Below are positions 14,229-38,889 of a stretch of DNA of 53,275 bases, piece by piece. The position numbers and the translations under genes were made by a program. The notes beneath the pieces were generated by a model. The model searched no databases and was not told the origin of the DNA. It saw nothing but the letters and a program-made list of their open reading frames with translations. This stretch comes from Deltaproteobacteria bacterium (GTDB lineage Bacteria > Desulfobacterota > Syntrophia > Syntrophales > UBA5619). Each line of letters begins with the position of its first letter. Within the stretch, counting starts at the first letter, position 1. The stretch lies in the NCBI GenBank assembly GCA_021817825.1, contig JAKAFS010000017.1:1-53275 (forward strand). The letters are read 5' to 3'.

Positions 14229-14245
14229 CCAAAACTCATTCGTAC

Positions 14246-14273
14246 TGTCATTCCTGCGAAAGCGGGAATCCAG
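14246..14273 (+). repeat. Dispersed palindromic repeat, copy 1
   Basis: TGTCATTCCTGCGAAAGC followed by GGGAATCCAG matches copy 2 at 17217 in 27 of 28 bases. It forms a hairpin (ATTCC...GGAAT) and lies between the SpoIID-like gene and the permease gene. Confidence 0.8.
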
Positions 14274-16333: not shown

Positions 16334-18273
16334 AGGAGTCAATCATCCGGACAGCCTTCATCCTCGGGGCGGGGTTGGGGACGCGCCTGCGGCCCCTGAC
16401 GGAACGCTGCCCCAAGCCGCTTTTGCCCATCGGCGGCCGGCCGCTGATCACCTATGCCATGGACCACTGCCTCGCCATCGGCGTCGAGCGGTTCATCGTC
16501 AACACCCACCACTGCGCGGCGGCCTATGACGCCGCTTTTCCGGACCTCCTCTGGCGCGGGGCGCCGATCTCCTTTTGCCACGAACCGGTTCTCCTCGACA
16601 CCGCCGGCGGTCTCAAGAACATCGAAAAGCTCCTGGGCAATGATGAAACCTTCCTCGTCTACAACGGCGACATCCTCAGCGATCTGCCCCTGAAAACTCT
16701 GCTGGCGGCCCACTCTGCTGGCGGCCGGGAAGTTACTCTCGCCCTTCGAAGCGACGGTCCTTTGCGGAATGTCTGCCTCGATGCCGAAGGGGTGATCTGC
16801 GATTTCCGCGACCTTTTCGGCAATCCCGGCGTCCGGCGCTGCCTCTTCACCGGGATCTACCTGGTGGAAAAACGGTTTCTCCGGAGGCTCGCGGCGGGAA
16901 AGATCGAATCCGTCGTTCCCGTCTTCGTGGAGATGATCCGTGAAAACCCGGGGGCGGTCGCCTCGGTCGTGATCGATGCGGGGAGTTGGGAGGATATCGG
17001 CGATGTGGCGACCTACGAACGGATCGCTGCCGACCTTCCGCTGCTCCGGTATGGGGATGTCCCTTTGTCCGGGCAAGAGACGCTTGCCGTTTCCGCAACC
17101 GTCAATGCCACTGCTCTAAATCCCGAGTTCAACACCGTTATTCCTGCTGCCGCTGCCACCATTCCCGATACCGCTGCCGCTATTTCCGACAGCGATACTG
17201 TCATTCCCGCACCTTCTGTCATTCCCGCGAAAGCGGGAATCCAGGGCGGGGCGGGGGACGCCGGTGAGGAAACCGCCTTTGTCCATGAAACCCTGGGTCT
17301 TGCCGACCGGGCAACGATGACGTTGACCCCGGTCGGCAAAGGGGGGTCCGACCGCGCCTACTTCCGCGTTGCCGTGGCCGGCTGTCCGCCCGCCGTCCTG
17401 ATGCGCTACGGCAGTCTGTACGAGGAAAACGACGGCTATGTGGCCGTAGAGAAATTCCTGAAGGCGATCGGCATTTCTGTCCCCGAGATCTACGGCCACG
17501 ATTCTGAAAAGCGGCTGATCCTGATGGAGGATCTGGGGGACAGTGACCTCTATGCATTGCGGGATGCCCCCTGGGAGATGCGGCGCGGCCTCTACGAAAA
17601 GACCCTGCTTCAGGCCGCAAGGCTGCATGCCTTTCCCCTGGCCGAACTGCCCGCCGACCTGCACCTCATGCCCGGCTTCGATGCCGGCCTCTACCGATGG
17701 GAACGCAACTATTTTCTCGACGAATGCGTCCGGAATGCCTGTAAGATCGATCTTCCCGCCGCCGAGGCAGCGGCCCTGGAAGAGGAACTCTCCGCCCTGG
17801 CAGACCGGCTGACCGCCCAGCCAACCGTCCTGGTCCACCGCGACTTTCAGTCCCAGAACGTCATGATCCGCGCCGACGAACCGGTCCTCATCGACTTTCA
17901 GGGGCTGCGGGCCGGGAGCCTCTTCTACGACCTTGGTTCCCTGCTCTTTGATCCCTACGTGACCTTTCCCGAGGGGGGAAGGGAGGGGCTCCTCCGCTTT
18001 TATTATGAAGAGACCGGTTTCCCCCATTCCTGGGAGGCCTTCCGGGAACTCTTCTTTCTGGCCACAGCCCAGCGGCTCATGCAGGCCCTGGGGGCCTACG
18101 GGTGCCTGGGGCTCAAACGGGGAAAGCCCCATTTCCTGGTCCATATCCGCCCGGCGCTCGCCAACCTTGCCGCCGTTGCCGGAGAGGCGGGGGGGCTGCC
18201 GCACCTCAGCGCCCTCGTTCGCCGTTGCCGAGCGGTTGCAGAGAATGGGCTTGCGTTCCTATCCGCACCTTAA
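16330..18273 (+). CDS. Bifunctional sugar-1-phosphate nucleotidyltransferase / sugar kinase (MurU-AmgK-type fusion)
   Basis: Two-domain enzyme of 647 aa. Residues 1-240 are a nucleotidyltransferase with GAGLGTRLRPLTERCPKPL at 13-31, a VYNGDI metal site and GSWEDIGD. Residues 325-640 are an aminoglycoside-phosphotransferase-type kinase with VHRDFQSQN (catalytic D505) and LIDFQG (D522). This pair matches MurU (MurNAc-1-P uridylyltransferase) and AmgK (anomeric MurNAc/GlcNAc kinase), which recycle wall sugars straight to UDP-MurNAc in Pseudomonas, where they are separate genes. The AmpG-like permease nearby supports this; another sugar is possible. The linker (250-310) is low in complexity and contains an in-frame copy of the dispersed palindrome, read as VIPAKAGIQ. 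Confidence 0.85.
   Translation: MKESIIRTAFILGAGLGTRLRPLTERCPKPLLPIGGRPLITYAMDHCLAIGVERFIVNTHHCAAAYDAAFPDLLWRGAPISFCHEPVLLDTAGGLKNIEKLLGNDETFLVYNGDILSDLPLKTLLAAHSAGGREVTLALRSDGPLRNVCLDAEGVICDFRDLFGNPGVRRCLFTGIYLVEKRFLRRLAAGKIESVVPVFVEMIRENPGAVASVVIDAGSWEDIGDVATYERIAADLPLLRYGDVPLSGQETLAVSATVNATALNPEFNTVIPAAAATIPDTAAAISDSDTVIPAPSVIPAKAGIQGGAGDAGEETAFVHETLGLADRATMTLTPVGKGGSDRAYFRVAVAGCPPAVLMRYGSLYEENDGYVAVEKFLKAIGISVPEIYGHDSEKRLILMEDLGDSDLYALRDAPWEMRRGLYEKTLLQAARLHAFPLAELPADLHLMPGFDAGLYRWERNYFLDECVRNACKIDLPAAEAAALEEELSALADRLTAQPTVLVHRDFQSQNVMIRADEPVLIDFQGLRAGSLFYDLGSLLFDPYVTFPEGGREGLLRFYYEETGFPHSWEAFRELFFLATAQRLMQALGAYGCLGLKRGKPHFLVHIRPALANLAAVAGEAGGLPHLSALVRRCRAVAENGLAFLSAP
17217..17244 (+). repeat. 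Dispersed palindromic repeat, copy 2 (inside a coding region)
   Basis: TGTCATTCCCGCGAAAGC plus GGGAATCCAG, in the linker of the MurU-AmgK-type gene. Degenerate half copies (GTCATTCCCGCA and similar) precede it from about 17140, giving the repeated peptide VIPA. The reading frame is kept. Confidence 0.85.
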
Positions 18274-34809: not shown

Positions 34810-37162
<2,353 letters not shown>

Positions 37163-37180
37163 TCACTAGTGCTCCTAACC

Positions 37181-37318
37181 GGCTGTTGAAAAACGCCCAT
37201 CTGCTGCGTTGCGCTGCAACCTTCCCCCGCTTTCGCGGGGGCAGGCTTGCGGCGTACGAAAAGTACGCCTCATTCCTCATGTTTTGCACGCCTTGCATCT
37301 GTGCATTTTTGAACAGCC
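37181..37318. mobile_element. MITE-like 138-bp element between atpA and atpG
   Basis: The ends are inverted repeats: GGCTGTTGAAAAACGCCCAT on the left, and on the right (read as complement) GGCTGTTCAAAAATGCACAG. Inside are two nested hairpins, CCCCCGC-N4-GCGGGGG (37224-37241) and GGCGTAC-N5-GTACGCC (37251-37269). No reading frame of note is inside. No clear target-site duplication was seen. It sits in the untranslated spacer of the ATPase operon, so it is transcribed with it. Confidence 0.75.
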
Positions 37319-37374
37319 TCTTAAACGCGCCTTTTTCAAATGCTCCTTAAAGTATCAGTTCCTCTGGGTCATCG

Positions 37375-38889
37375 TCACTCGGCGACGTAAACGGAGTCGA
37401 ACTCCGTCAAGACCTCGCGCAGCTTCTTGTCGAGCTCCGGACTGATCACCTGCTTTTCGTCGATTTCCTTCAGGATCTCGGGATATTTGCCTTCGACGAA
37501 GGAGAGCATCTGCGGCTCGTAGTTCTTCAGCTTGTCGACCGGGTACTTGTCCAGGAAGCCCCGGGTCCCGGCATAGAGGATGACCACCTCCTGAGCCAGC
37601 GACATGGGCGCGAACTGGGGTTGCTTGAGGATTTCGACGAGCCGGATTCCGCGGTCCAGCTGGGCCTGTGTCGCCTTGTCCAGATCGGAGCCGAACTGGG
37701 CGAAGGCCGCCAGCTCACGGTACTGGGCGAGGTCGAGTTTCAGGGTTCCGGCGACCTGCTTCATGGCCTTCACCTGGGCCGCCCCGCCGACGCGGGAGAC
37801 CGAGAGCCCCACGTTGATGGCCGGCCGGATGCCGGAGAAGAAGAGCGACGGTTCCAGATAGACCTGGCCGTCGGTGATGGAGATCACGTTCGTCGGGATG
37901 TAGGCCGAGACGTCCCCCGCCTGGGTTTCGATGATCGGCAGGGCCGTCAGCGATCCGCTCCCCAACTCCGGGCTCACCCGGGCGGCCCGTTCCAGGAGCC
38001 GCGAGTGGTTGTAGAAGATGTCGCCCGGGTAGGCCTCCCGTCCCGGCGGCCGGCGGAGAAGCAGCGAAATCTGGCGGTAGGCCACGGCCTGCTTGGAAAG
38101 GTCGTCGTAGATGATCAGGGCGTCCTGGCCATTGTCCCTAAAATATTCGCCGATACTACAGCCGGCATAGGCGGCGATGTACTGTAGGGTCGCCGAGTCG
38201 CTCGCGCAGGCGGCCACGACGCAGGTGTAGGAAAGGGCGTCGTGCTTTTTCAAGTGTTCGACCAACTGGGAGACCGTGGATTTCTTCTGGCCGATGGCGA
38301 CGTAGATGCATTTGACGCCGGTGTTCTTCTGGCGGATGATCGCATCGATGCCGATGGCGGTCTTGCCGATCTGCCGGTCGCCGATGATGAGCTCGCGCTG
38401 GCCGCGGCCGATGGGCGTCATGGCGTCGATCGCCTTCAAGCCCGTGTACATGGGCTGATTGACCGGCTGGCGGAAGACGACGCCGGGGGCGATCATTTCG
38501 ATCCGGCGGAATTCCGTCGTTTCGATGGGGCCCTTGCCGTCGATCGGGGCGCCGGTCGCGTCGATGACCCGTCCGAGCACTCCCTCCCCGACGGGGATCT
38601 GGGCGATCTTTCCGGTCCGCTTGACGATGTCCCCTTCCTTGATATGGGTCACTTCGCCCAGGACCGCCACGCCGACGTTGTCGGTTTCGAGGTTCAGGAC
38701 CATGCCGAGAATGCCGCCGGGGAATTCGAGCAATTCCATGGCCATGGCATTTTCCACGCCGTACACCCGGGCGATGCCGTCGCCGACGGAAAGGACCGTT
38801 CCCGTTTCACTGATATCCAGCTTCTTTTCGTATTCTTTGATCTGCCTGGAGATGATCTCGCTGATCTCTTCCGCCCTGATGGTTTCCAT
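37375..38889 (-). CDS. atpA: ATP synthase F1 alpha subunit
   Basis: Non-catalytic nucleotide-binding subunit of 504 aa. P-loop [11 protein letters not shown] near 169-179, [39 protein letters not shown] and the regulatory Arg in [21 protein letters not shown] 38889 follows atpH by 3 bp. Followed by 212 bp holding the MITE-like element before atpG. Confidence 0.98.

Follow-up and report, generated by a model that had tools for sequence, protein, structure and literature searches.

The spacer between atpA and atpG in the F-type ATP-synthase operon of this Deltaproteobacteria bacterium very probably contains a non-autonomous MITE of the IS5 family, moved in trans into a YTAR target. The operon lies in the window, that is, the whole stretch of 53,275 nucleotides analysed here (contig JAKAFS010000017.1). 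The MITE label, already proposed in the initial annotation, is upheld by dispersed copies, terminal inverted repeats, 4-bp duplications at the family level, empty sites in relatives, and ISs that carry the same ends. The element is an example of a known MITE type at a tolerated intercistronic site. What is unusual about it is only the well-kept fold of its body, a long hairpin that shows compensatory changes and leans somewhat towards one strand.

The operon is encoded on the minus strand, with atpA (ATP synthase alpha, 37375..38889; Pfam ATP-synt_ab domains) upstream of atpG (ATP synthase gamma, 36287..37162; Pfam ATP-synt; start codon at 37160-37162), and the spacer between them comprises 212 bp (37163-37374). 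Imperfect inverted ends and two internal hairpins had been described there, and both are seen: the inverted arms (37176-37204 and 37295-37323) are 76% complementary, and the internal hairpins occupy 37220-37245 and 37243-37277. The plus strand of the spacer has a predicted folding energy of -74.8 kcal/mol (z -5.7), which none of 200 shuffles equalled, and the mRNA strand, folded with the adjoining gene ends, gives a z of -4.9. A simple scan of positions 36900-37700 found no intrinsic terminator or sigma-70 promoter, and the window yielded no Rfam match at the gathering score. Two ORFs of at least 60 aa (65 and 78 aa) overlap the element and extend beyond its ends; it has no transposase gene of its own.

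The element occupies 37179..37345 (167 bp), as delimited by dispersed copies, the target-repeat statistics of the family, empty sites, and the excision length; its structured strand is the minus strand, which is also the sense strand of the atp mRNA. The element of 138 bp that had been proposed is therefore real, but its length was underestimated, as the outer terminal repeat at 37321..37345 had been missed. On the atpG side, the terminal repeat (37179..37195) reads CCGGCTGTTGAAAAACG (family form CAGGCTGTTGAAAAACG) and is the same kind of end as that found in IS5-family ISs. The inner arm of the long hairpin, GCATTTTTGAACAGCCT (37303..37319), pairs with this repeat except at one conserved same-base mismatch. 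Comparison with other copies identifies the outer terminal repeat, or small hairpin, which is degenerate in the window copy (GAGCATTTGAAAAAGGCGC; GAGCATTTGAAAAAGGCGCGTTTAA; both on the minus strand); in related copies a second terminal repeat lies past the inner arm and forms a small hairpin, either CAGGGTGTTGAAAAACACC or GAGCCTTTGAAAAAGGCTC. In the interior, a G+C-rich nested palindrome (37220..37245) is present only in some copies (L002-L005, L011, and L021), others having a shorter linker, and a central hairpin, GGCGTAC-GAAAA-GTACGCC (37251..37269), is conserved in the family, with compensatory changes. In L021 (1501-1550), the loop of the nested G+C palindrome is reversed, reading GCTTTCGC as against GCGAAAGC in other copies, with the element in the same orientation. 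The flanking 4-bp target repeats, read directly and backed by the family statistics, are CTAA on the atpG side (37175..37178) and CTTA on the atpA side (37346..37349), both given for the plus strand and matching at three of four bases. Because this repeat is imperfect and the outer terminal repeat is degenerate, the atpA-side boundary of the window copy could be one base off.

Copies of the element are widely dispersed. A search for copies elsewhere, proposed as a check in the initial annotation, recovered 33 stretches of the own genome that match the spacer sequence (window copy included), some of them being two pieces of one copy; 12 of the 33, again with the window copy, span both ends, at 71-100% identity. 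The remaining copies lie on other contigs, distant from the atp operon. The search covered 41 genomes (the own genome and 40 relatives as distant as other members of the order), of which 30 hold matches; 14 of 24 genera are represented among these. Named genomes hold at least 114 matching stretches, and the labels among the 80 matches listed are those of MAGs of Syntrophales, Syntrophobacterales, Syntrophaceae, Syntrophus, Smithella, 'Deltaproteobacteria', and 'Proteobacteria', which suggests that the window, too, is of Syntrophales origin. Of 395 genomes sampled from the phylum as a whole, 13 (the own genome among them) contain an exact 25-nt piece of the family consensus, with five other families represented, and none contains its reversed control. 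A 24-nt element pattern had no exact match in viral contigs. A literature search by title and abstract opening, in which subscription papers were mostly outside coverage, found no published description of this MITE family.

Insertion of the family is marked by short target repeats. The test comprised 144 unique copies, including that of the window: 93 had a detectable outer repeat, 50 were tested in the short form, and one was dropped as it had no flank. Identical 4-bp flanks were found in 34 of the 93 full-length copies, whereas 2000 re-pairings of the flanks gave 5.8 on average and at most 14; the other 59 copies have non-identical flanks. When the inner end was taken as the boundary, identity fell to 1/93, and when one boundary was slid by 1-2 nt, to 0-1/93. 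Target repeats are weak in the short-form copies, with 4 of 50 identical (re-paired mean 0.5, maximum 4). The flank consensus of the family is YTAR, which is stated to be the target of IS5 in PMC10359306.

The target chosen in the atp operon overlaps the front of a translation signal. When the element and one target repeat are removed, a 41-nt spacer remains, ending in TTAGGAGCACTAGTGA before the ATG. The motif TTAGGAG (37172..37178, minus strand) lies 9 nt before the atpG start codon, and the AGGAG within it (37172-37176) is likely the Shine-Dalgarno sequence. As the atpG-side target repeat also forms the 5' part of this site, duplication of the target leaves TTAGGAG intact. AGGAG (CTCCT on the plus strand) had been noted on both sides of the element, and it does occur at 37172-37176 and 37343-37347; this had been taken to look like a duplicated atpG ribosome site. 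The 4-bp target, with the front of the Shine-Dalgarno sequence, was indeed duplicated, but the distal AGGAG straddles the junction between the atpA-side target repeat and the terminal sequence of the element (GAGC...). Since this start is the element's own and is common to some other copies (L069, L111, and L117), the distal AGGAG need not be a copied ribosome-binding site. Across the family, a Shine-Dalgarno sequence with an open start lies within 22 nt of the element at 26 of 275 flanks, compared with 3-8 of 270-271 shifted positions, a contrast that is inflated because the shifted positions fall partly within genes.

The origin of the transposase was sought among ISs. In the own genome, none of six candidates carries DUF772, the single PF01609 match lies at a locus without element ends, and no autonomous partner IS was found. 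Among 30 DUF772 loci, L180 was the sole one at which the first end scan detected a pair of element ends around a transposase fragment; at another of these loci (L182, the same place as L358), one end was detected in that scan and the second only with a later pattern. L180 is a deleted IS, bounded by TTAG followed by CAGGCTGTTGAAAAT and by GTTTTTCAACAGCCTG followed by CTAG, and its 163-aa fragment is IS5/IS1182-like, scoring under the NCBIfam cut-offs. A search of the order, covering 155 genomes, gave six with a match to this fragment at E<=1e-20, so that IS relatives are rare there compared with the MITE. In particular, L356 is an IS of 1341 bp that starts with CAGGCTGTTGAAAAAC after CTAA, ends with TTTTTCAACATCCTG before TTAA, and contains an open 357-aa ORF; its protein has DUF772 and DDE_Tnp_1 domains and scores 292 bits on NCBIfam IS5_4 (cut-off 140). 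L355 is an IS of 1337 bp with element-type ends and a broken frame, L357 has an open 367-aa frame and only one end found, and L180/L354 and L358 are deletion derivatives. Both ends were located in four ISs of the order. Identical flanks (CTAG/CTAG) occur in just one of these, L358; those of L354, L355, and L356 agree at three of four bases. In genome G025, the deleted IS5-family element of L358 (1137-1798), with its CTAG flanks, follows immediately after an ORF that looks, by eye, like atpC of the ATP-synthase operon. As for other candidate partners, none of 22 DDE_Tnp_1 loci has a pair of element ends (L166 shows one lone near-match), and L163, whose end is only vaguely similar (AAGCCTGTTCAATA), was set aside.

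Related ISs occur on plasmids. Of 1554 matching records, each with less than 60% identity, 40 were listed, and the IS ends were read in six of these. All six, ISDisp1 and ISAzs10 included, have YTAR flanks, which are identical on both sides in five; the ends read GTTGAAAAA in three and are a GCGGAAAAA variant in the other three. ISs of the IS5_4 group (L355-L357, ISDisp1, and ISAzs10) thus have the kind of terminal repeat and the YTAR flanks in common with the MITE. The ends likened to those of the MITE are CAGGCTGTTGAAAAAC in L356 and CAGGCCGTTGAAAAA in ISDisp1, and the end of an IS on a Thiolapillus plasmid, CAGGGTGTTGAAAAACCCC, is close to the MITE small hairpin CAGGGTGTTGAAAAACACC; the end of ISAzs10, in contrast, is the GCGGAAAAA variant. 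Unlike these ISs, the MITE has no transposase gene, and its internal part of about 120 bp is a long conserved hairpin.

A probable course of events can be proposed from these data. An IS5-type DDE transposase from an IS of about 1.34 kb with CAGGCTGTTGAAAAAC ends would act in trans on the element, and insertion at a YTAR target in the atpA-atpG spacer would duplicate 4 bp. The transposition event itself is a step that we infer; it is backed at the family level by the target-repeat statistics and the shared IS ends. The operon mRNA would then carry a predicted hairpin of about 140 nt between atpA and atpG. With 212 instead of 41 nt between the two genes, translational coupling, if there is any, should be weaker, and the insertion may also create an mRNA processing site. 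That the insertion persists is probably due to its intercistronic position, to the preserved ribosome site, and to the lack of a recognisable intrinsic terminator. An effect of the element on AtpA:AtpG stoichiometry or on mRNA processing is possible.

It has been considered that the body of the MITE is, in addition, a functional strand-specific hairpin of RNA (or ssDNA) kept by selection. This proposal adds to the IS5 origin and does not compete with it, and it is, on balance, unlikely, though supported by several observations. An alignment was made of 27 of 28 diverse copies, chosen from 74 long copies with a core of 118-126 nt; L278 was omitted, as its interior differs, and the window copy, with its longer core, lies outside this set. 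Of 39 predicted pairs, 17 show changes on both sides, compared with 9.7 in shuffles and 2-6 in slid controls. These counts are not independent, as the copies are related and the fold was derived from this very alignment, a procedure that works in its favour. No shuffle matched the observed value on four of five measures, and 2 of 500 did so on the fifth (further pair types). At the 41 pairs that the two strands have in common in their folds, there are 56 G-U cells and 18 A-C cells, and in 134 of 144 copies the more stable fold is that of the strand with the sense of the atp mRNA. A parsimony analysis of 138 of the 144 copies (gappy and identical rows removed) counted 114 changes from Watson-Crick to G-U, 65 from Watson-Crick to A-C, and 81 between Watson-Crick pairs. 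These results suggest that the single-stranded form of the hairpin was of importance in those lineages that spread. Against selection stand 113 outright pair breaks in the same parsimony set and a mixed strand preference (5/7) in the seven copies from other families of the phylum. Moreover, no sense-strand bias was found among co-directional neighbour genes (29 sense vs. 40 antisense, p 0.23, with crude ORF calls), and the signal could in part be produced by template-switching correction of palindromes or by shared descent from master copies that contained G-U pairs. It is similarly doubtful, yet conceivable, that the transposon ends act as a vehicle for a structured RNA, with selection across several families of the order keeping the hairpin of about 120 nt and the YTAR target preserving the ribosome site. 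If so, a pre-formed mRNA stabiliser, processing module, or small RNA would be delivered with every insertion, the one between atpA and atpG among them. The strand-leaning fold is, in any case, a testable hint of selection on the MITE body.

A different role for the structure, in which the ATP-synthase operon would have a conserved cis-regulatory RNA for adjusting AtpA:AtpG stoichiometry, is very improbable when the spacers of relatives are compared, a check that had been suggested at the outset. An atpG match was obtained in 38 of 41 genomes and loci from 30 (the own genome and 29 relatives); one locus (L221) was dropped, as its contig starts at atpG, which left 28 measurable relatives. The element is absent from the atpA-atpG spacer in all 28, five of which belong to the same genus, and these spacers measure 14-152 nt. 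Regulatory function could be read from the stable predicted fold in the atp mRNA and from genome G030 of another family, which has its own copy in the same spacer (read via L101), as well as from other palindromes in this spacer in G018 and in G007/G012. The G030 copy, however, has the opposite orientation and another position and is an independent insertion; the other copies of the own genome lie away from the operon, and no Rfam match was obtained. That the sequence might be absent elsewhere and conserved only as operon spacer, the outcome named in the initial annotation as refuting a MITE, is contradicted by the dispersed copies and the empty spacers. The atpA-atpG spacers of the relatives L212, L213, L215, and L230 hold palindromes of other kinds (GTCATTCCCGCGAAAGCGGGAATCC, and GGGGACACGATCCGAATCGTGTCCCC, which two genomes share in identical form) or tandem repeats of the GTCATAAGTC type, as if insertions were readily tolerated in this spacer. 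The window also has another repeat family, CTGTCATTCCYGCGAAAGCGGGAATCCAG, with two copies (14245-14273 and 17216-17244) that are 97% alike, and the same palindrome occurs in the atpA-atpG spacer of G018 (L212).

REPIN/RAYT systems likewise consist of paired hairpins in intergenic DNA, but they are not known to make target-site duplications. It is slightly less probable still that the element is a REPIN or REP element mobilised by a RAYT (Y1/HUH transposase), even though its paired hairpins, length of approximately 100-150 bp, intergenic position, and many copies fit this description and the own genome has two Y1_Tnp genes. Both of these genes lie, by eye, between other repeats, and neither locus has element ends. 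No pair of ends was found at 29 RAYT loci of relatives, L147 having a single lone near-match. Conversely, five genomes (G001, G023, G030, G032, and G033) have no Y1_Tnp and yet 15-24 element matches. The family, with its 4-bp target repeats of the DDE type and the ends of DDE ISs, does not track RAYTs, and an IS5-family MITE is preferred over a REPIN because the ISs with the same ends encode an IS5-family transposase. The RAYT genes of the own genome (L031 and L032) are flanked by repeats of their own (GGGGACACCATACT; GTAGGGACAGCGCCCTACTT), which are, by eye, candidate REP families. Finally, a chance hairpin or an assembly artefact, in favour of which only the draft state of the genome (204 contigs) can be cited, is a negligible prospect given the fold z score, the copies across the own genome and relatives, and the matched target repeats.

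Comparable small elements with inverted repeats have been described before. The review PMC10969869 presents the Chunjie MITE of Geobacter uraniireducens as an operon insertion that measures 178-235 bp and has both TIRs and direct repeats; the title of the original paper, as given in the reference list of that article, includes the words 'without disturbing the operon structure'. By this description, Chunjie resembles the window MITE in size class, TIRs, direct repeats, and operon insertion. The same review refers to ERIC and Correia elements as small inverted-repeat elements in mRNA for which RNase E or RNase III effects have been reported, and these are likened to the window MITE by description, not by sequence. 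An IS5-family MITE accounts for an otherwise puzzling spacer within a core energy operon, and a mostly uncultured group of anaerobes thereby gains a MITE family that is well bounded by its ends, target, and parent IS group. Targets that overlap a Shine-Dalgarno sequence may explain how such an element enters an operon without breaking it, and the same spacer has been hit independently in another family.

Two copies outside the window depart from the usual arrangement. At L365, a copy from a different family of the phylum, the direct repeat present on each side is a long one, GAGAGGTATCTGACTCATG, and not one of 4 bp. At L368 (G357:C131, 5852-6048), the 25-nt end occurs three times with an exact spacing of 86 bp, as if a shortened form were arranged in tandem.
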